NCBI GenBank assembly: GCA_016794665.1
Contig: JAEUHB010000339.1
Span: 1 to 64,000 of the forward strand
Length of the DNA: 64,000 bases
Direction of reading: 5' to 3'
From: Opitutaceae bacterium
GTDB taxonomy: Bacteria > Verrucomicrobiota > Verrucomicrobiia > Opitutales > Opitutaceae
The notes under the pieces are model-generated. The model was given only the letters and a program-made list of their open reading frames with translations. It was not told the DNA's origin and ran no database searches. The position numbers were made by a program, and so were the translations under genes. Below, piece by piece: positions 35,504 to 63,647 of this stretch (its first letter is position 1; each line of letters begins with the position of its first letter).

Positions 35504-35749
35504 TCACCGCCCGCCGGCGTAGAGGCAGTCGATCTCGACTTGTTCGCCGCAGGAGCAGGTGACGACGAGGCGGACCACCTTGTCCCCTTCCTTCACGACC
35601 TCCACCTGAGCGCCCGAAGCCGAGGGCGCCAGCCGCGAGAATTGGGGCACACGCAGGCCGCCGAACTGCACCTCATGCGCGACTTGAGCGGCGAGCGGCC
35701 GCAGCGACTCGGTGGCGAGCGCCCTCTGGCCGGTGAGGAAAGATTTCAT
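35504..35749 (-). CDS. Small conserved-looking protein with CxC...C motif, last gene of the motility operon
   Basis: 81 residues, not recognised. The start overlaps the motB stop (ATGA), which argues that it is a real, coupled gene. The N-terminal half is a helical segment (SFLTGQRALATESLRPLAAQ). The C-terminal half forms strands, EVVKEGDKVVRLVVTCSCGE then QVEIDCLYAGGR. Cys residues in CSCGEQVEIDC could bind a metal, but one more ligand would be needed, perhaps from a dimer. No signal peptide or membrane span. Position suggests a motor-linked or regulatory role, which is inference. Confidence 0.7.
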   Translation of the reverse strand: MKSFLTGQRALATESLRPLAAQVAHEVQFGGLRVPQFSRLAPSASGAQVEVVKEGDKVVRLVVTCSCGEQVEIDCLYAGGR

Positions 35750-36531
35750 GGCGACGGCCGCGCCTCGCTCGGCACGATCGGGATCTTCTTGTTCACCATC
35801 TTCCCGTCCTTCGGCTTGTCCTTGGGCGAGAGCGTGAGGTGCAGCGTGATGCGATCGTTCGAATCCGAGGCCGGGGGCTCGTTGGGCACCGGCTTGGTCG
35901 ACCCGTAACCGGTCAAACGCTCGATCTGGGCGGGAGCGACCGCGTAGTGGACCAGTGTTCGTCGCGCCGCGTTGGCGCGATCCGAGGAGAGCTCCCAGGT
36001 CGTGTAATTGGGCTTCGACGACGCCGATTCCGGCCGGGCATGACCGTCGATGGTGACTTGGAAGCGGTGGCGCTCAACGGTCCAGGCCATGTTTTGGAGC
36101 ACGAACGTCCCCCACTCCGTGAACTCGGTCGTGCCGGGCACGAACAGCGGGCGGTTCGCGCGGTCGAAAAGGCTCACGCGCAGGCCGTCCGTCGTGACCT
36201 GGATGTCGATGGGCTTGCTCTCCAGCGCCTCGTCGAGGTGCAGGAGGCGGTAGAAGTCCGCGGCCACCGAGTTGAGGAAAGTCATGTTGATCTGCTTGTC
36301 CTTCTCGTGGTCGCGCTCCGAACCCTTGCCCTGGCTCTGCGTGGTCTTGTTGGAATTGAAGGGCATCACTCCCGAGGTCGCCTCGAGCGGCGAGCGAAAC
36401 GGGCTCTGAAAATACTGCGACGTGGAGATCAGGATTTCCTTATCCTGCGCGGAAATCCACAGCACCATGAACAGGGCCATCATCGCGGTCACGAAGTCCG
36501 CGTAAGCCACCTTCCATGCACCTCCTCCCAT
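35746..36531 (-). CDS. motB: Flagellar stator protein MotB
   Basis: 261 residues. The single N-terminal membrane span carries the proton/ion-binding Asp in KVAYADFVTAMMALFMVLWI. The C-terminal OmpA-like peptidoglycan-binding domain has QVTIDGHARPESASS, WELSSDRANAARRTLVHYAV and QIERLTGYGSTKPV. The N-terminus is short (MGGGAWK), lacking the basic tail before the span. A genuine Shine-Dalgarno-like AAGGA overlaps the motA stop, one of few in this locus. MotB anchors the stator to the cell wall. Confidence 0.95.
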   Translation of the reverse strand: MGGGAWKVAYADFVTAMMALFMVLWISAQDKEILISTSQYFQSPFRSPLEATSGVMPFNSNKTTQSQGKGSERDHEKDKQINMTFLNSVAADFYRLLHLDEALESKPIDIQVTTDGLRVSLFDRANRPLFVPGTTEFTEWGTFVLQNMAWTVERHRFQVTIDGHARPESASSKPNYTTWELSSDRANAARRTLVHYAVAPAQIERLTGYGSTKPVPNEPPASDSNDRITLHLTLSPKDKPKDGKMVNKKIPIVPSEARPSP

Positions 36532-36543
36532 GGCGCGTGTTCC

Positions 36544-37404
36544 TTATTTGCCGGGCAGCGCCTTGAGCGCAGCCTCGAGCTCGGCGGAGCCGGGCTGGAC
36601 GGCATGGTCAAGCGAGCGGCGCGCGACCTCGATGGCGGTGAGCGGGGCGAGGCCCTTGGCAAAGCCGGCAATCGCCTGCTTGATGCACTTGAGGAACTGC
36701 TCGTCGTTCTGGTTGTTGAACTCGATGCGGTTCGCCAGCGGGTTGACGAAGCCGTAGGCGACGAAGATCCCGAGCAGCGTGCCGGTGAGCGCGGCGGCGA
36801 CCTTTTCACCGACCTTCTCGGGGCCGTCCGCGATGGCGTTCATCGTGTTGATGATGCCGAGCACCGCCGCCACGATCCCGATGCCGGGCAGCGAGTCGCC
36901 GACGAGGTGCAAAATGTGGATCGGATGGTGGGCCGATTCGGTCTTGGTCTTGAGCTCAGAGTCCATCAGCTCCTCGAGCTGGTCGGGCTTGATCTTGCCG
37001 TCGATGACGGGCTTGAGGCCGTTGCAGATGAACTCGAGGCGCTCGTGATGCCCGAGGATGGAGGCGTAGCGCTGGAAAATGGGACTCTTCTTCGGATCCA
37101 TGACGTGCTCCTCCAGCGCGATGAGGCCGTTGCGGCGGCCGACCATGAAGATCTCGTAGAGGAGCTTGAGCACGTCGCTGAATTCCTTCTGGCCAGCGGA
37201 TTTCCCGCCAAGCGCGTCCTTAATCTTGTGGATGATTTCCTTGATGACGTGGCCGGGGCTCGCGATCACAAGCACGCCCGCGGCGACACCGAGGATGACC
37301 ACAAACTCCGACACGTGCAGCAGCACGACCGGGTTGCCGCCGGCAATGATGAAGCCTCCGAGCGTGGAGGCCATCACGATGACTGCGCCAACGATAATCA
37401 GCAT
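36544..37404 (-). CDS. motA: Flagellar stator protein MotA
   Basis: 286 residues with four membrane spans: near 1-22 (IIVGAVIVMASTLGGFIIAG), 30-50, about 175-195 and 205-230. The functionally important proline region is DSLPGIGIVAAVLGIINTM, and EKVGEKVAAALTGTLLGIFV follows. The large cytoplasmic loop between spans 2 and 3 (about 55-170) contacts FliG. The start is preceded by CCACACCACCAC rather than a Shine-Dalgarno. motB follows after 12 bases. Confidence 0.95.
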   Translation of the reverse strand: MLIIVGAVIVMASTLGGFIIAGGNPVVLLHVSEFVVILGVAAGVLVIASPGHVIKEIIHKIKDALGGKSAGQKEFSDVLKLLYEIFMVGRRNGLIALEEHVMDPKKSPIFQRYASILGHHERLEFICNGLKPVIDGKIKPDQLEELMDSELKTKTESAHHPIHILHLVGDSLPGIGIVAAVLGIINTMNAIADGPEKVGEKVAAALTGTLLGIFVAYGFVNPLANRIEFNNQNDEQFLKCIKQAIAGFAKGLAPLTAIEVARRSLDHAVQPGSAELEAALKALPGK

Positions 37405-37486: not shown

Positions 37487-38293
37487 TCAACGCTCGCGCA
37501 TGCGCTGCAGCCAGCCGCGCAGCCCGAGGATCGTCTGGGCGTGGATCTGGCAGATGCGGGACTCCGTGAGCCCGAACACCGCCGCAATCTCGGCCAGCCG
37601 CATGTTTTCGAAGTAATACATCGCAAGGATCTTCTTGGGGATATCGGGCAGTTCGGCGATTCGTTGAGTGAGAAGTTGGAGGAGCTCGGCCTTTTCGAGG
37701 TTATCGCGGCCCGTCTTGTCGCACTCGTCGGCGAGCAGCTCGTGCAAGGAGGCGCCGGGGCCCTCGTCGTTCTCGGTCTGCTGGTCGATGGCGATGAAGG
37801 TGACGGGCTTGGCCTCCTCGACCCACTTTTCGTATTCCTTGGGGCCGATGTTGAGGACCTCGCAGACCTCCTGGGGGGTGGCGGCGCGGCCGTGCTTCTG
37901 CTCGGCCTCAATGATCGCGTTCTTCAGCTTGCGGGAGCGCGCGCGCGCGCGGCGGGGGCACCAGTCCATGCGGCGCAGCTCGTCGAGGATGGCGCCGCGG
38001 ATGCGCATGGCCGCGTAGCTCGCGAAGGTCGCGCCCTGGTTGGGATCAAATTTCCTGACGGCGGCGATGAGGCCGGTGACGCCGACGCTGTAGAGGTCGT
38101 CCGCGTCGACGTGCGCGGGCACGTTCAGCTTGATGCGGTCGACGACGTTGCGGACGAGCGGGAGGTAGCGCACGATGAGCTCCTTCTCATCGACGGCCCC
38201 GGGCGCGACGCCTTGGTAGGCGCGCCAGATCTCGGAGGTGGCGGTGGGGGCGGCTTCCGTGCCGGGTGGGAGGGTGACTGTGGCGGTGTTCAT
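37487..38293 (-). CDS. fliA: Flagellar sigma factor FliA (sigma-28 / WhiG family)
   Basis: 268 residues. Region 2 has DADDLYSVGVTGLIAAVRKF and FASYAAMRIRGAILDELRRM; region 3 has RARSRKLKNAIIEAEQKHGR; region 4 has LPDIPKKILAMYYFENMRLA followed by EIAAVFGLTESRICQIHAQT, the -35 recognition helix-turn-helix. It should direct transcription of late flagellar and chemotaxis genes. The anti-sigma factor FlgM is not found in the window. It is placed after flhF and a small membrane gene, before motA. The leader has CCACCACACCAC before the ATG. Confidence 0.95.
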   Translation of the reverse strand: MNTATVTLPPGTEAAPTATSEIWRAYQGVAPGAVDEKELIVRYLPLVRNVVDRIKLNVPAHVDADDLYSVGVTGLIAAVRKFDPNQGATFASYAAMRIRGAILDELRRMDWCPRRARARSRKLKNAIIEAEQKHGRAATPQEVCEVLNIGPKEYEKWVEEAKPVTFIAIDQQTENDEGPGASLHELLADECDKTGRDNLEKAELLQLLTQRIAELPDIPKKILAMYYFENMRLAEIAAVFGLTESRICQIHAQTILGLRGWLQRMRER

Positions 38294-38311: not shown

Positions 38312-38551
38312 TTACTTGGTCTTGGCGATGGGAGTGGTGGCGGCGGCGGCGGCTGAGCGCGCGCGGGCGAGTTGCGAATCCCGCACGCCGTGGAGCAAAA
38401 CGGTCCAGAGCCAGCGGAAGAGCATGGCGCCGGCGAGGCAGCCGACCGCGGCGTCGAGGAAGATGCGGTTGCCCTCATGGCCGGCCCACAGGCTGCAGCC
38501 CCCGCTGATGACGAACCCGGCGAAACCGCCGCTGAGAAAAACAAAGCGCAT
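38312..38551 (-). CDS. Small membrane protein between flhF and fliA
   Basis: 79 residues, not recognised. It begins four bases after the flhF stop and ends 18 bases before fliA, a tight operon position that supports it being real. Two hydrophobic segments (MRFVFLSGGFAGFVISGGC and FLDAAVGCLAGAMLFRWLW) flank the short loop SLWAGHEGNRI. A basic, alanine-rich tail (GVRDSQLARARSAAAAATT) follows. A two-span inner-membrane hairpin with a cytoplasmic tail is the simplest topology. It could be a polar or assembly accessory; nothing in the sequence decides. Confidence 0.7.
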   Translation of the reverse strand: MRFVFLSGGFAGFVISGGCSLWAGHEGNRIFLDAAVGCLAGAMLFRWLWTVLLHGVRDSQLARARSAAAAATTPIAKTK

Positions 38552-38555
38552 GGGA

Positions 38556-39620
38556 TCAGGCGGCGAGGGGTTCGTCGTCGTCCGGCAGCGTCCGGCGCAT
38601 GATCGCGCCCGGCACGTCCTCCTCGCAGTCGCCGGTGAGCGACGGGCCGGTGGCGAGGAACAGCGGCTCGACCTCCTCGTCGAAGAGATAGTCCCAGAGC
38701 TTGCCCCACTGCGGCACCTCGTCGAGGTGGGTGAACACAAGGTGTGTCGCGCCGAGGTCGCGGCCCGCGGCGTAGGCTTCGCGCAGCGAGGCGCGATCGT
38801 AGGCGGCGTTGAGCACGAGCACGCGCTCGGTGATCTTCTCGCGCTCGAGGAAGAAGGCCATCGAGGCGTTGTCCGCCGGGCGGCGCACCGATAGGCCCGG
38901 CAAATCGAAGTAGACGAAGCCACCCGGGGTGGCCGGACCGGTCTCACAGGGGAAATGCGCCAGCGGCACACCGAGCGCCTCGCTGAAGACGGGGAGTGGC
39001 CCGAGGGCATTCGGCCGGTCAAACTCGACGCTCACGACATGTCCGGTGCGGGCGCGGCGGAAGGTCTCAAGCGCGATCCATTTGCAGAGCGCGGTGGTGC
39101 GCCCCACCCCGGCGGCGCCAAGGAAGGCCGCGCGCGACAACGGCGCGCGCACCGCGCGGACGCCGGCCTGGGAGCGCAGCAGACGCGCGGCCTCCGCCAG
39201 CGCGCGGTGCAGCGGCTGGGCGTTGAGCTCGGCCCAGGCGGGGCCGGCCTGGAGGCGTTGCAACGCCGTCTCCGAAATTCCCGTGCGCCGCAGCAGGCCG
39301 GTGAGTCCGATGCTCGACGGGAACGGCGTGAGGCGCGCGCGCGCGACGGCCGCCGGAGCGGCGGCCTCGTCGGGCCGCGCCGGCTCGTCCGAGGCCTGGT
39401 CGATTGCGGGCGCGGCCGGCGCCTCGGCATCGACCTGCGCGATGACCTCGAGCCGCGGGGCGGCGAAGAACTTCTTGAGGCCGGGCGCGGCGGCGTTGCG
39501 CACGGAAAGAACGCGGGCGGTGGGACCGAGCTTCTCGCGGATGAGCGCGACAGCCTCGTCGGTGGAGCGCACCGTGAACTTGTAGGTGCCGGGGGCGAAG
39601 AAGTGGGCGACGGCAGACAT
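38556..39620 (-). CDS. flhF: FlhF-like SRP-family protein with degenerate GTPase motifs
   Basis: 354 residues. The FlhF-type N-terminus (KFTVRSTDEAVALIREKLGP with TARVLSVRNA) and the NG-domain arrangement identify FlhF, which directs flagellar placement and early assembly. The G domain is altered: the P-loop at 168-176 reads GAAGVGRTT, with Arg174 in place of the nucleotide-binding Lys. The DTAGR motif reads DLPGLS (239-244), and TKLDE reads THLDE (297-301). The DTYR segment is reduced to EFDRPNAL. GTP binding or hydrolysis is therefore doubtful. It lies three bases after flhA in the usual flhA-flhF order; its usual partner FlhG is not present nearby. Confidence 0.9.
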   Translation of the reverse strand: MSAVAHFFAPGTYKFTVRSTDEAVALIREKLGPTARVLSVRNAAAPGLKKFFAAPRLEVIAQVDAEAPAAPAIDQASDEPARPDEAAAPAAVARARLTPFPSSIGLTGLLRRTGISETALQRLQAGPAWAELNAQPLHRALAEAARLLRSQAGVRAVRAPLSRAAFLGAAGVGRTTALCKWIALETFRRARTGHVVSVEFDRPNALGPLPVFSEALGVPLAHFPCETGPATPGGFVYFDLPGLSVRRPADNASMAFFLEREKITERVLVLNAAYDRASLREAYAAGRDLGATHLVFTHLDEVPQWGKLWDYLFDEEVEPLFLATGPSLTGDCEEDVPGAIMRRTLPDDDEPLAA

Positions 39621-39623
39621 GGC

Positions 39624-41822
39624 TTAGGCGGCGGCCTTGAGCGGCAGCTCGGCGCGCGCGACATGGGGCGGCGCACCAATGATGCCGGCGTTTTCGATTT
39701 CCGTGGCCGACGGCAGCTCCTGGTAGGAGAGCACGGTCACGCGGGGGAAGGAGGACTCGAAGAAGCGCTTCAGTGGCAGCCGGATTTCCGCCGAGACCAC
39801 GATTACCGCGGGCTGGCCGGCCTGAATGAGCTCGGCGGTGAGCCGCGTAATCTGCTCCATCAGGTGGCGGCCCGTCGCGGGATCGAGCACGAGGCCGACC
39901 TCGGTGGGCGTGCGCTGGATCTTGGCGGCGAGCCATTGCTCGAGGCGCGGGTCGACGGTAACGGCGCGCACCACCCCGGGACGGCACTCGAACTCCGGCA
40001 CAAAATACAGGCCGAGGCGGCGCCGCACCAGCTCGCTCAAGTCGTCGGGGTTCTTCGAGAGCGAGGCGAAGTCCGCGATGCCCTCGAGGATGAGCGGTTG
40101 GTTGAGAATCGCGATGTTCTCGCGGAGAAGATTTTGGAAGACGCGCTGGATGATGCCCAGGTTCACGAGGTCCGGCAGCAGCTCCGAGATGAGCGCCGGC
40201 TGCGTGAGCTTGATGTGGTCGACGATGTGCTGGACCTCCTGGCGGCCGAGTAGGTGATGTGCGTTTTGCTTCAGCGTTTCGGAAAGGTGCGTGATCAAAA
40301 CGGACGAGGGATCGACGACGGTGAAGCCGTTGTGCTCGGCATTGCGCTTCTCGGCCTCGTCGATCCACGTGGCGTCGAGCTGGAAGACCGGCTCGCGTGT
40401 GGGCGTGCCCTTGAGGCGGACCTTGGACCCGGAGACGTTCATCGCCATCCAACGGCCGGGCGCGAGCGTGCCGCGGGCGACGGGTTTGCCGCGCAGCAGG
40501 AAACGGTAGTCGTTGTGATCCAGCTCGAGGTTGTCGCGCACCGAGATGGGCGGGACGACGATGCCCTTTTCGCGGGCGAGGCTCTTGCGCACGCCCGTGA
40601 CGCGGGCGAGCAGTTCGCCGCCGATCTTGGAATCAGCCAGCCCGAGCAAGCCGGCGCCGATCTCGATCGCGAACACGTCGACATCGATCAGGCGGCGCAC
40701 GTCCTCGGGCGCGCCGGGCTTGGTTGCGTCGCCGGCCGAGGCGGGATTGCCGGGCGCCCCGGGCGCGCCGGGCTTGGCGCCCTTCGGCGGAACCGGCTTG
40801 GCCGCGGCCGCGGCCTCGGCGCCGAGCGGATGGCCGGTCTTGGTCTCCTGATCCTCGAGCAGCTTGCCGAGGAATCCGGCCATGCCGCCGAGCATGAAGA
40901 AAGGGAGCATCGGCATGCCCGGCATGAGGCCGAAGGCGATCAGCATGCCGGCGGAGATTTTCATCGCGCGCGGGTAGCGGAAGAGCTGGCCGGCGAGCTG
41001 GGTGCCGAGGTTGGTGTTGTCCGAGGCGCGCGTGACGAGAATACCGGCGCCGACGGAGAGAATGAGCGCGGGAATCTGCGAGACGAGGCCGTCACCAATC
41101 GAGAGCAGCGTGAACTTCTGCAGCGCCTCGCCGAGCGGCAGGCCCATCTGCATGACGCCGATGGCAAATCCACCGACGATGTTGACGAGGGTGATGATGA
41201 TGCCGGCGATGGCGTCGCCGCGCACGAACTTCGAGGCGCCGTCCATCGCGCCGTAAAAGTCGGCCTCCTTCTGGACCTTCACCCGACGGGAGGTGGCGGT
41301 CTGCTCGTCGATGATGCCGGCGTTGAGCTCGGCATCGATGGCCATCTGCTTGCCGGGCAGCGCATCGAGGGTGAAGCGCGCGCTCACCTCGGCGATGCGG
41401 CCCGCACCCTTGGTGATGACGACGAAGTTGATGACGACGAGAATCAGGAACACCACCGCGCCGACGACGTAGTTGCCGCGAATGACGAAGTGGCCGAAAG
41501 CCTCGATGACTTCGCCCGCGTAGCCCTGCACGAGCACCTGGCGAGTCGTGCTGATGTTGAGCGCGAGGCGGAAGAGCGTGAGCGCGAGCAGCAGCGTGGG
41601 GAAACTGGAGAATTCCGGCGGATCCTTCACGTAGATGATCGCGAGGAGCACGAGCAGCGTGAGCCCGAGGTTCAGCGCGAGGAAGGTGTCGAGCAGCAGC
41701 GTCGGCACCGGGACCATCAGCAGCAGGACAGTGAGGAACAGTCCGCCCGTGAAGATCAGGTCGGCGCGCTTCAGGAGCTGCGCGACCGGGTTGGAGCCGG
41801 GAATCACGACGGCGGCGCTCAT
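39624..41822 (-). CDS. flhA: Flagellar type III export protein FlhA
   Basis: 732 residues, full length. About eight membrane spans occupy residues 18-330. The conserved cytoplasmic FHIPEP-region loop includes RIAEVSARFTLDALPGKQMA and IDAELNAGIIDEQTA. The large C-terminal cytoplasmic domain (about 390-732) has LITHLSETLKQNAHHLLGRQ and a FlhA-like ILEGIADFASLSKNP. FlhA forms the nonameric export ring that receives chaperone-substrate complexes. A Pro/Gly/Ala-rich insert near 340-375 lengthens the linker. Its start overlaps the flhB stop (ATGA). Confidence 0.97.
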   Translation of the reverse strand: MSAAVVIPGSNPVAQLLKRADLIFTGGLFLTVLLLMVPVPTLLLDTFLALNLGLTLLVLLAIIYVKDPPEFSSFPTLLLALTLFRLALNISTTRQVLVQGYAGEVIEAFGHFVIRGNYVVGAVVFLILVVINFVVITKGAGRIAEVSARFTLDALPGKQMAIDAELNAGIIDEQTATSRRVKVQKEADFYGAMDGASKFVRGDAIAGIIITLVNIVGGFAIGVMQMGLPLGEALQKFTLLSIGDGLVSQIPALILSVGAGILVTRASDNTNLGTQLAGQLFRYPRAMKISAGMLIAFGLMPGMPMLPFFMLGGMAGFLGKLLEDQETKTGHPLGAEAAAAAKPVPPKGAKPGAPGAPGNPASAGDATKPGAPEDVRRLIDVDVFAIEIGAGLLGLADSKIGGELLARVTGVRKSLAREKGIVVPPISVRDNLELDHNDYRFLLRGKPVARGTLAPGRWMAMNVSGSKVRLKGTPTREPVFQLDATWIDEAEKRNAEHNGFTVVDPSSVLITHLSETLKQNAHHLLGRQEVQHIVDHIKLTQPALISELLPDLVNLGIIQRVFQNLLRENIAILNQPLILEGIADFASLSKNPDDLSELVRRRLGLYFVPEFECRPGVVRAVTVDPRLEQWLAAKIQRTPTEVGLVLDPATGRHLMEQITRLTAELIQAGQPAVIVVSAEIRLPLKRFFESSFPRVTVLSYQELPSATEIENAGIIGAPPHVARAELPLKAAA

Positions 41823-42922
41823 GTTGCTGCCTCCAGCCGGCGGCTCTTAAGGCGGTGGAAATAATAACGGTGCGTGCGGTAGACGACCGCGAGGATCTCG
41901 GCCACCGCCTGATAAAGCTCGGAGGGGATGACCTCCCCGACCTTCCCCATCGCGTAGAGCATGCGCGCGACGGGTTTGTTCTCAACGGTGGGCACGCCGT
42001 GCTCGGCCGCGAGGGCCTTGATACGCTGGGCAAAGCGGTTCTCACCCTTCGCGAGCACCACGGGCGCTTGATCGACGCCGCGCTCATATTTCAGCGCGAC
42101 GGCAAAGTGGGTCGGATTCGTCACGACGACATCGGCGGTCTGCACCGCGGCGAGCATCTGCTTCTGCATCAGGCGACGGGCCATGCGGCGCATGGCGGCC
42201 TTGGTGCTGGCGTCACCTTCCGCCTGCTTGCGCTCATCTTTCACCTCGGTCCGCGTCATCATGAGGTCGCGCGCCGTCTTGAACTTCTCCCACCCGAAGC
42301 TGATCGCCGCGACGATCGCCAGGGCGAAGAGCAGGCGCGTGAGGAAGAGGAGCGTGGCGTTATTCAGAAACTGGCCGAGGTAGGCGGTCTCCACCGGCGC
42401 GCTGAACAACGGATCACTGATCAATCCCTTGGCGCCGAGCCACAGGGCGGAACCGATCGCGATGAGCTTGAGCAAATCGATCCCGGCGCGCACGAAGGCC
42501 GTCTTGGAAAAAATGCGCTGGAAGCCCGCGACCGGATTCAAGTGCTCAAACTTGATTCCGACCGCCTTCGGCGAGAGCCGGAAACCGCTCTGCACGCCGC
42601 CCGCCAGCACCACGGCCACCACGATTGCCACGAGAAGGGGCGCCAGAACGCCGCCGCAGACGAGCAACGCCTCGCTGAGCTGCGGCACAACGGTGTTGGC
42701 CTCGACCGGCGTAAACGCGAACCGCGTGAACATGCCCGCCGCGTATTCCGCGATATCGCGCGAGGCCGCCGGGGCCGTCAGCGCGAGCACGCCGATGGTG
42801 GCGGCAATGGGGAAAAGCACCGTGACCTCGTGCGACTTGGCGAACTGACCGCGCTCCGCGGCCTCGGAGAGTCGTTTCTCGGAGGCCTGCTCGGTTTTTT
42901 GGTCTTGGTCGTGGTCCGCCAT
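41819..42922 (-). CDS. flhB: Flagellar export switch protein FlhB
   Basis: 367 residues from ATG 42922 (MADHDQDQKTEQASEKRLSE). Four membrane spans are followed by the cytoplasmic domain with the autocleavage site NPTH in DVVVTNPTHFAVALKYERGV. Cleavage there switches export from hook to filament substrates. The longer reading from 42958 is rejected because it would overlap a sigma-54 promoter element at 42942-42957. flhB starts an operon running flhB-flhA-flhF-small gene-fliA-motA-motB-small gene. It is separated from fliR by the accessory insert at 43.2-45.2 kb. Confidence 0.96.
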   Translation of the reverse strand: MADHDQDQKTEQASEKRLSEAAERGQFAKSHEVTVLFPIAATIGVLALTAPAASRDIAEYAAGMFTRFAFTPVEANTVVPQLSEALLVCGGVLAPLLVAIVVAVVLAGGVQSGFRLSPKAVGIKFEHLNPVAGFQRIFSKTAFVRAGIDLLKLIAIGSALWLGAKGLISDPLFSAPVETAYLGQFLNNATLLFLTRLLFALAIVAAISFGWEKFKTARDLMMTRTEVKDERKQAEGDASTKAAMRRMARRLMQKQMLAAVQTADVVVTNPTHFAVALKYERGVDQAPVVLAKGENRFAQRIKALAAEHGVPTVENKPVARMLYAMGKVGEVIPSELYQAVAEILAVVYRTHRYYFHRLKSRRLEAAT

Positions 42923-42941
42923 GCGATCGTGCACGGACTTT

Positions 42942-42957
42942 AGCAACGACGGTGCCA
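42942..42957 (-). promoter_or_regulatory. Sigma-54 type -24/-12 promoter of the flhB operon
   Basis: On the minus strand TGGCACC-GTCG-TTGCT matches the sigma-54 consensus TGGCACG-N4-TTGCW at every position except the seventh, preceded by the favoured T (TTGGCAC). Transcription would start near 42931, nine bases before the flhB ATG. The rest of 42923-43166 shows no other feature. Confidence 0.7.
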
Positions 42958-43166
42958 ACGATTTTCAGGTTACGGCTACCTGTTGGCCTCATGCACTTTG
43001 CGTCGCCAACAGATTTGCAAATGGCATCCGATTTCCACATTCGGCGGCATCCGCCGCTGGCCGCGGCAAAAACTGCCGCAGCCGCGCACCCCCGCGCGAC
43101 ATGAGTCACGGCCACTCCATCGGCCCCTCGAGGGACCATTACTACTTCAACCCTTCACGTCGGCGG

Positions 43167-55672: not shown

Positions 55673-56692
55673 TCAGGCAGCGGCCTCCGGGGTCTCCGCA
55701 TCAAGCGAGATCTGGCCCTCTTCCTCGAGGCGGCGCACGACCTGGATGACGGCGTCCTGCGCCGCGTCGATGTCCTTGCGGCGCGGATTGCCGAGCATCT
55801 CCATCTCGTCCTTCAGGGTCTCGACGGCGCGCTTCGACATGCAGCCGTAGATCTTGGTGCGCAGGCCCTCGCTCGCGCCCTTGAGGGCGAGCGTGAGGTT
55901 GGCGGAGTCGACCTCGCGCAGGATGCGCTGCAGGTCCGCGGCCGCGAGGCGGTTGATGTCCTCGAAGCCAAAAAGCTTCTTGCGCACGGCGGCGCAGAGC
56001 GCGGCGTTCTTCTCCTCGAGCTTGGTGAGGAGCGTCTTGGTGGTCTCCTTGCCGACGACATTGAGGAGCTCGGCCACGGCGCGCACGCCGCCGCTGCGGT
56101 GAAAGGAGGGCTTGGCCTTGGAGTCGTGGTGCCGGCCGAGGCCGCGCGCGATCTTGTTGGCGAGGTTGAGCGAGGTGCTCTCGAGGGTGCCGAGGCGCTC
56201 GACCACGTCGTTGCGCAGATCCTCGCCGAGGAGGCCGAAGACCTCGGCGGCCTTGGCGTTGTCGAGGTAGGAAAGAAGAAACGCGATCGTCTGGGGCTGC
56301 TCGTGCTTCACGAGGTTGAAGATTTGCATGCCGTCCATTTCCGAAATGCCCTTGGCGACGTCGCCCGCGCTGGCGCCGCCGGGGCCGATGCGGCCGACGA
56401 TGGCGGAGGCCTTTTGGTCGCCCTTGGCAATCGCGAGCGTGCGCTGCGCGTAGGCGATGCCGCCAAGCGCCGAGTTCGCGCTGCGCAGGATCATGCCGCC
56501 GAATTCCTCGAGCACAAAGCGCTGCGACTCGGCGGGCACGACCTTGAAGGCGGACATCTCGCGGCAGATGAGCTCAATCTCGGCGTCGTCGAACTGGCGC
56601 AGGACCTCAGCCGCGGCCTCCGGGCCGACGAGGATGAGGAACATCGCCAGCTTCTGCTGGCGGGTGAGCTTGGCGTAGTCGAGTTCGCTCAT
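55673..56692 (-). CDS. fliG: Flagellar motor switch protein FliG
   Basis: 339 residues, full length. The N-terminal domain binding FliF has YAKLTRQQKLAMFLILVGPE and AAAEVLRQFDDAEIELICRE. The middle domain has EHPQTIAFLLSYLDNAKAAE (EHPQTIA motif). The C-terminal torque domain has FEDINRLAAADLQRILREVD and KTIYGCMSKRA-like sequence (LRTKIYGCMSKRAVETLKDE), followed by a charged tail. FliG converts stator motion to rotation. Confidence 0.97.
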   Translation of the reverse strand: MSELDYAKLTRQQKLAMFLILVGPEAAAEVLRQFDDAEIELICREMSAFKVVPAESQRFVLEEFGGMILRSANSALGGIAYAQRTLAIAKGDQKASAIVGRIGPGGASAGDVAKGISEMDGMQIFNLVKHEQPQTIAFLLSYLDNAKAAEVFGLLGEDLRNDVVERLGTLESTSLNLANKIARGLGRHHDSKAKPSFHRSGGVRAVAELLNVVGKETTKTLLTKLEEKNAALCAAVRKKLFGFEDINRLAAADLQRILREVDSANLTLALKGASEGLRTKIYGCMSKRAVETLKDEMEMLGNPRRKDIDAAQDAVIQVVRRLEEEGQISLDAETPEAAA

Positions 56693-62750: not shown

Positions 62751-63647
62751 TCAGGCCTGCGCGTGCTGGAGCAACTCGGCCGCGACCTTGGTGTAATCGC
62801 CGATCACGTTGTCTGCGGCGTTGCCGGCCTCGGCGGACTCCGCGCTCACGAGGGCGACAGGCAGACCGAGCGCGACGGCGCGGCGCACTACCATGGCATC
62901 GCGGATTTGGGCGTCGAAGATCTTCGCGCCGGGGGCGGCGCGCTTGGCGGTCTTGAATTGGTTCAGGCGAAGCTGCATTCGCATCTTGGGCACCTCGATA
63001 TCGACCCCAGTCTTGATCGAGTTGAAGATAATCCCCTGAATCTGCGCGGGCGGGCCCATCGTTCCTTTGCGGAAGGAAGCCGAGAGCTGGTGGAATTTTT
63101 GCAGTTTTTCGACGAGGAGCGTGAAGCCGATCAGGCTCAGCGCGTCGGGGTTGGCCGGCACATAGATCTCGCTGGAGCTGAACACGCCGCATTGCGAAGC
63201 GCGCAGGATGTTGGGCGGGCAGTCGAAGAGGATGAAATCGTAGCGTGACTCCACCTCGGCGAGCTGCTCGTAGAAAATCTGGTAGGGCGGCCGCTTGGGA
63301 TCGCCGTCATACTCGCTCTCGAGGTCGACGAGATTGAAGGTCGTGGGCACCAGATCGAGGCCGGGCAGCAGCTTCTCGCCCGAGCGGCCCTCGACCACAT
63401 CCTGATGGATCAGGTCGCGGAGCCGTGCGCCGCTCGTGAAAATGGAATACACTGATCCGTGCGTGGCGGCGTTAATCTTGTTCCAGCGGTCGAGCTTCAG
63501 GAGCCAGATGCTCGCATTGGACTGCGTGTCAAAGTCGCACAGGAGGACACGCTTGCCTTGCTTCGCGAGGGCGGCGGCCGTGTTCACGACCAAGGAGGTC
63601 TTGCCGACCCCGCCCTTGTAATTGATGAAGCTTATTTTTCGCGCCAT
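62751..63647 (-). CDS. ParA/MinD-family ATPase
   Basis: 298 residues. The deviant Walker A is at the N-terminus (FINYKGGVGKTSLVVNTAAA), followed by RVLLCDFDTQSNASIWLLKL, and Walker B-like YDFILFDCPPNILRA near 150. No N-terminal DNA-binding extension is present, so it is a ParA of the small chromosomal or cargo-positioning type rather than a plasmid ParA with helix-turn-helix. No parB follows; the companions are two unknown helical proteins. Candidate cargos include the flagellum or chemoreceptor arrays, since FlhG is not seen in the window. Confidence 0.88.
   Translation of the reverse strand: MARKISFINYKGGVGKTSLVVNTAAALAKQGKRVLLCDFDTQSNASIWLLKLDRWNKINAATHGSVYSIFTSGARLRDLIHQDVVEGRSGEKLLPGLDLVPTTFNLVDLESEYDGDPKRPPYQIFYEQLAEVESRYDFILFDCPPNILRASQCGVFSSSEIYVPANPDALSLIGFTLLVEKLQKFHQLSASFRKGTMGPPAQIQGIIFNSIKTGVDIEVPKMRMQLRLNQFKTAKRAAPGAKIFDAQIRDAMVVRRAVALGLPVALVSAESAEAGNAADNVIGDYTKVAAELLQHAQA

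Follow-up and report, generated by a model that had tools for sequence, protein, structure and literature searches.

We propose that an Opitutaceae bacterium encodes a true FlhF which has probably ceased to hydrolyse GTP and works without FlhG as a static scaffold for flagellar placement. The gene lies on the reverse strand at positions 38556-39620 of the window, by which we mean the whole 64,000-nucleotide stretch of contig JAEUHB010000339.1 that was analysed, and codes for 354 amino acids (stop codon included in the ORF) with B-N-G architecture and degenerate GTPase motifs of a type shared by its class, Verrucomicrobiia. The initial annotation had read the protein as a pseudo-GTPase. This holds in so far as both the hydrolytic machinery and FlhG are lost while the protein is functional and not decaying. 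The changes are not peculiar to the one gene, however: in an alignment of 191 FlhF sequences, those at the Arg of DTAGR and the Lys of TKxDE are class-wide and older than the replacement of the P-loop Lys. These bacteria thus appear to place their flagella without the on/off cycle of GTP that is thought to be standard.

The gene is embedded in a flagellar locus on the reverse strand with the order flhB-flhA-flhF-[79-aa two-TM ORF]-fliA-motA-motB, which places it in the flhA-flhF-(flhG)-flgV-fliA cassette. Directly upstream is flhA (39624-41822; TIGR01398, 793.9 bits), preceded by flhB (41819-42958; TIGR00328, 303.3 bits). On the other side follow fliA, encoding sigma-28 (37487-38293; TIGR02479, 225.6 bits), motA (36544-37404; TIGR03818, 309.8 bits) and motB (35746-36531; PRK09041, 154.8 bits). 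The gene of the C-ring partner FliG, which is reported to bind FlhF B domains, is found at 55703-56692 on the same strand (TIGR00207, 261.6 bits). The 79-aa ORF between flhF and fliA (38312-38551, reverse strand) had no Pfam or NCBIfam match in the libraries scanned. It looks like FlgV by its position beside flhF and fliA, its two TM segments, assigned by visual inspection of the sequence, and an Arg in the second of them, which is present in 11 of 13 aligned neighbours and replaced by Lys in one more. FlgV of Borrelia (BB0268) is likewise small, has two TM helices, the second of which contains an Arg, and is encoded at the flhF(-flhG)/fliA junction (PMC10802407). Here, however, the FlgV-like gene comes directly after flhF, where flhG stands in other classes, and flhG is missing. 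The same two-TM ORF occupies this place in many loci of the class and follows flhG in the other classes.

All four nucleotide-binding and catalytic motifs of the protein deviate from the consensus. The P-loop reads GAAGVGRTT (residues 168-176; 39093-39119, reverse strand), in which the Lys of GxxGxGK[T/S] is replaced by Arg174 (codon CGC at 39099-39101). In the alignment, EFDR (residues 199-202; 39015-39026, reverse strand) takes the place of DT[YF]R, and DLPGL (residues 239-243; 38892-38906, reverse strand) that of DTAGR/DTPGR, with DxxG kept and the Thr and Arg gone. The G4 motif [T/S]KxDE, TKLDE in the canonical form, has become THLDE (residues 297-301; 38718-38732, reverse strand), with His for Lys and the Thr, Asp and Glu kept. 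The P-loop, DLPGL and THLDE are as the initial annotation had described them. DTYR, described there as lost, has indeed no Thr and Tyr, but the segment is altered and not deleted, since it aligns as E199-F200-D201-R202 and so retains an acidic residue and an Arg. No second FlhF, canonical or other, was found in the genome, where the two better matches to TIGR03499 are FtsY and Ffh. Both carry the P-loop Lys, DTAGR and TKLDG, so the motif change is specific to FlhF.

The alignment set merges the results of searches in 273 genomes of the order (whole protein), 384 genomes of the class (profile) and 387 genomes of the phylum (FlhF model) with 80 named loci, and its 191 non-redundant sequences comprise 178 from the window's class and 13 from other classes of the phylum. 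All 13 sequences from other classes are canonical at every motif (DT[FY]R, DTxGR, [TS]KxDE and P-loop Lys). The Arg of DTAGR and the Lys of TKxD, present in 13/13 of these, occur in 0/178 class members. In the class, the Lys position of TKxD is His in all but one sequence, and the Thr of DTYR and the Thr of DTAGR are gone in nearly all. The P-loop position holds Lys in 81, Arg in 85 and Ser, Ala, Cys or Val in 12 class members, counts that are not population frequencies because the named loci were retrieved with peptide patterns that included one spanning the P-loop with R or K allowed. Other positions are nearly invariant, namely the P-loop glycines, Thr175, Lys180, the acidic residue at 199, Asp239, Thr297, Asp300, Glu301 and Gly325, with an occasional Ser at the positions of Thr175 and Thr297.

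In a quick tree with long branches, built without the motif columns, a branch with full support separates the class FlhFs from the others. The Arg-type proteins make up one clade (support 100; 85 of 86 members with Arg, the remaining one with Cys), and the Ser/Ala/Val type another (support 100). This corresponds to two losses of the P-loop Lys on the tree, but a single loss may be shared by both clades, as the branching between them is weakly supported. Three genomes of the same family (L225, L227 and L228) retain the P-loop Lys and fall outside the Arg clade. On this tree, the change from Lys to Arg is a later step in Opitutaceae, whereas the DTAGR and TKxD losses are older and class-wide. 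Phe200 has a single origin, which coincides with that of the Arg clade. Within this clade the tree shows 15 or more changes of the G3 residue Gly242, compared with none among its Lys sequences; the residue is altered in 30/85 Arg-type versus 1/81 Lys-type sequences. Contact with or sensing of the gamma-phosphate therefore looks relaxed once the P-loop Lys is replaced. The sole Arg-clade FlhF found with Cys in the P-loop (L108; GPPGAGCTT) keeps EFDR and DLPGL and has SHLDE as G4.

FlhG is the reported activator of FlhF, which stimulates hydrolysis by means of a DQAxxLR helix, and a 2025 review describes flhF and flhG as consistently encoded together and forming a conserved switch (PMC12826062). 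In the phylum studied here, 13/13 canonical loci with enough sequence have flhG immediately after flhF, whereas 0/100 class loci have it there or nearby. The flhG of the canonical loci starts at the end of flhF and encodes KGGVGKT and, in 12 of them, a DQAxxLR-like motif. Where downstream genes are listed, the canonical order is flhF-flhG-[two-TM ORF]-fliA; where the cassette is intact in the class, it is flhF-[two-TM ORF]-fliA, with flhG alone missing. The initial annotation had noted that flhG was missing nearby, and its absence extends to the whole genome, in which the best match to the FlhG profile reached 45 bits within a 761-aa frame. The assembly is 94% complete, but FlhG is absent class-wide, which makes an assembly gap an unlikely cause. 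Over 384 class genomes, the FlhG profile gave three strong matches, the weakest at 213 bits and the next match at 79 bits, and no FlhG was found in the flagellated genomes among them. The three strong matches (in G372, G417 and G361) were rejected as flagellar FlhG, as these genomes have no class FlhF, FliG or flagellin and the matches lie beside an ExeA-like ATPase. A FlhG-like fragment of 74 residues (L273; G514:C187:314-535) was also set aside: it is incomplete, lies near a contig start and runs into unrelated sequence, and could reflect either a relic gene or an artefact of the assembly. The pairing of a MinD/FlhG-like ATPase with an AAA ATPase, labelled ExeA-like from sequence inspection, is seen at L286, L287 and L288, in three class genomes without FliG and flagellin. 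The window itself encodes an orphan ParA-like ATPase at 62751-63647 (reverse strand), with KGGVGKT intact, which matched ParA partition models below their cut-offs.

The loss of FlhG and the loss of the FlhF motifs coincide once on the tree. This is a single event, and therefore no statistical or repeated correlation between the two losses is given. Since FlhG acts by stimulating hydrolysis, the joint loss of FlhG and of the catalytic residues makes sense for a one-way or static scaffold. We hypothesize that flhG was lost from an flhF-flhG-flgV-fliA cassette in the common ancestor of the class FlhFs, and that in the same ancestor FlhF lost the Thr and mostly the Arg of DTYR, the Thr and Arg of DTAGR and the Lys of TKxD. 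Later, in Opitutaceae and a neighbouring clade, separately or jointly, the P-loop Lys would have been replaced, by Arg in the one and by Ser, Ala or Val in the other. The B domain may still engage FliG or early parts of the basal body, while the NG domain, with its fold preserved, would act as a scaffold that is permanently "on". A nucleotide, if bound, would then be structural. Without an FlhG-driven return to the monomer, flagellar number would have to be set otherwise, possibly by expression level, FliA or FlgV, or would not be tightly set.

The near invariance of the P-loop glycines and Thr, the Asp of G3 and the T.DE of G4 implies that the pocket still has some role, whether nucleotide-related or structural. 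The kept pocket would argue for GTP binding, whereas the Ser/Ala/Val clade and the relaxed Gly of G3 would argue that the triphosphate is not needed there. The bolder proposal that the whole class runs FlhF as a nucleotide-independent pseudo-GTPase, a fixed scaffold with neither GTP cycle nor FlhG, is tentative, and we lean somewhat against it. If true, it would separate the placement function of FlhF from its switch function in nature.

Mutants of FlhF from Vibrio alginolyticus help to weigh these changes (PMC6092412). There, GTPase activity was seen only with FlhG, and GTP binding rather than hydrolysis matters. The exchange R334A, at the Arg of DTYR, abolished GTPase activity and left flagella normal, and with G380A flagellation was near normal. 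K305A, D377A and K437A reduced the number of flagella without abolishing them, whereas flagella were lost with T306A, T436M, D439A and E440K. By motif alignment, the last four positions correspond to T175, T297, D300 and E301, all kept in the class, while K305, K437 and G380 correspond to R174, H298 and G242, all positions that changed in the lineage. D377 corresponds to D239 and is kept, although D377A is only partly defective in Vibrio. Transferred in this way, the class is seen to keep the residues that appear essential in Vibrio and to have lost those at which Vibrio tolerates a mutation in full or in part. Losing the pocket has a cost in Vibrio, however, as the pocket mutants, K305A among them, were for the most part insoluble and showed reduced polar localisation (PMC6092412).

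The Vibrio result that binding matters more than hydrolysis also fits a different reading, in which hydrolysis is gone but GTP binding, with Arg174 in place of Lys, still drives a needed dimerisation, with GTP loading or turnover of the protein taking over the regulation from FlhG. The nearly invariant P-loop glycines, Thr175, Asp239 and T.DE of G4 agree with it, as does the fact that Arg is fixed and not drifting in Opitutaceae (85/86 of the clade). Some Lys-to-Arg mutants of the Walker A motif, such as RecA K72R, bind nucleotide without hydrolysing it. This reading is nevertheless unlikely, although it deserves to be taken seriously: the nearby Ser/Ala/Val clade has no basic residue in the loop, and its genomes are yet flagellated, and the Gly of G3 was repeatedly lost in the Arg clade.

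Far less probable is an FlhF that still hydrolyses GTP by means of remodelled catalytic residues (E199, R202 and H298) and a putative activator of another kind. The counterpoint to a loss of hydrolysis is that E199 and R202 stand at the catalytic DTYR positions in Opitutaceae. The DTYR Asp position is Asp or Glu in nearly all class FlhFs, and 76/85 of the Opitutaceae Arg type have regained an Arg where DTYR has its own, so that residual GTPase activity of the Opitutaceae FlhF is conceivable. However, only 12/81 Lys-type class members have this Arg, and the class-wide loss of the DTAGR Arg together with the absence of FlhG removes the known catalytic help; even the canonical Vibrio FlhF had GTPase activity only when FlhG was present (PMC6092412).

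That a different SRP-GTPase paralogue occupies the flhF slot is very doubtful, despite the low profile score of the whole protein against TIGR03499 (46.5 bits, under the NCBIfam curated cut-off of 174 bits). Automated annotation and surveys that use the standard FlhF model will miss such proteins for this reason. Against the SRP54 GTPase domain model the protein scored 24.3 bits. The AlphaFold2 model (mean pLDDT 88.8; G domain about 97) predicts that the FlhF fold is retained: it has an SRP-type NG fold, and its residues 102-346 superimpose on GTP-bound FlhF (2px3) at Z 21.3 (242 residues, rmsd 3.3) and on GDP-bound FlhF (8r9r) at Z 21.0. Ffh and FtsY gave the same structural scores, so the fold is that of an SRP GTPase in general, and the identity as FlhF follows from synteny and the B domain. 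The conserved core of this N-terminal domain comprises residues 12-62 (39435-39587, reverse strand; pLDDT about 86-96), and residues 14-85 align to positions 5-75 of TIGR03499. The locus between flhA and flgV-like/fliA is that of canonical flhF, and the genome has its own canonical Ffh and FtsY.

A decaying pseudogene or relic, which the loss of several textbook motif residues might suggest, is hardly tenable for a protein that is full-length in dozens of species, has invariant positions including K180, D239, H298, D300 and E301, and is modelled with such high confidence in its G domain. Compared with eight near relatives, flhF has a dN/dS of 0.14-0.24 and is under purifying selection; together with the 85 non-redundant homologues that carry Arg, this rules out chance or a sequencing error as the origin of Arg174. 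The genome encodes FliG and has four flagellin-domain matches, and FliG and flagellin were found in 12/12 tested genomes with a Lys-less FlhF (ten Ser/Ala, two Arg). The Opitutaceae strain EW11, whose FlhF (L094) is of the Arg form with GTPGVGRTT, DLPGI and THMDE, is motile in swarming assays (PMC7251102), and Opitutus terrae is described as motile (PMC3035286). The numerous peritrichous flagella of the Opitutaceae isolate Vm1 (PMC12388122) would fit an absence of FlhG, in a comparison by family membership alone.

Compared with canonical FlhF from Bacillus subtilis (2px3/2px0), Shewanella putrefaciens (8r9r) and V. alginolyticus, the proteins of the class share the B-N-G architecture, the flhA-flhF-...-fliA synteny, the NG fold (Z 21 to 2px3 and 8r9r), the P-loop glycines, the Asp of G3 and the T.DE of G4. 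They differ in having DTYR, DTAGR and TKxD altered and no FlhG and, in Opitutaceae and a second clade, in the replaced P-loop Lys. The R334A mutant of V. alginolyticus is similar in that the machinery of hydrolysis is lost in a way compatible with flagellation (PMC6092412), but it is a laboratory mutant with FlhG and the P-loop Lys, whereas the class represents a natural state without FlhG. Escherichia coli and Caulobacter also make flagella without the FlhF-FlhG GTPase circuit (PMC12826062); both genes are absent there, whereas the class keeps FlhF and has lost only FlhG and the catalytic residues. We found no earlier description of such an FlhF in a search of one open-access collection and in one 2025 review. 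In contrast to the conserved switch of that review, a large lineage has kept FlhF in a cassette without FlhG, has lost the catalytic residues and is still flagellated, and the P-loop Lys was then also lost in one or two later events with flagellation retained. The class therefore offers a natural test of whether FlhF depends on the hydrolysis of GTP, on its binding or on neither. Within the Ser/Ala clade, the gene is located outside the flhBA cassette: at L220 it is next to a clpB-like gene, and at L222 it lies near one for flagellin.
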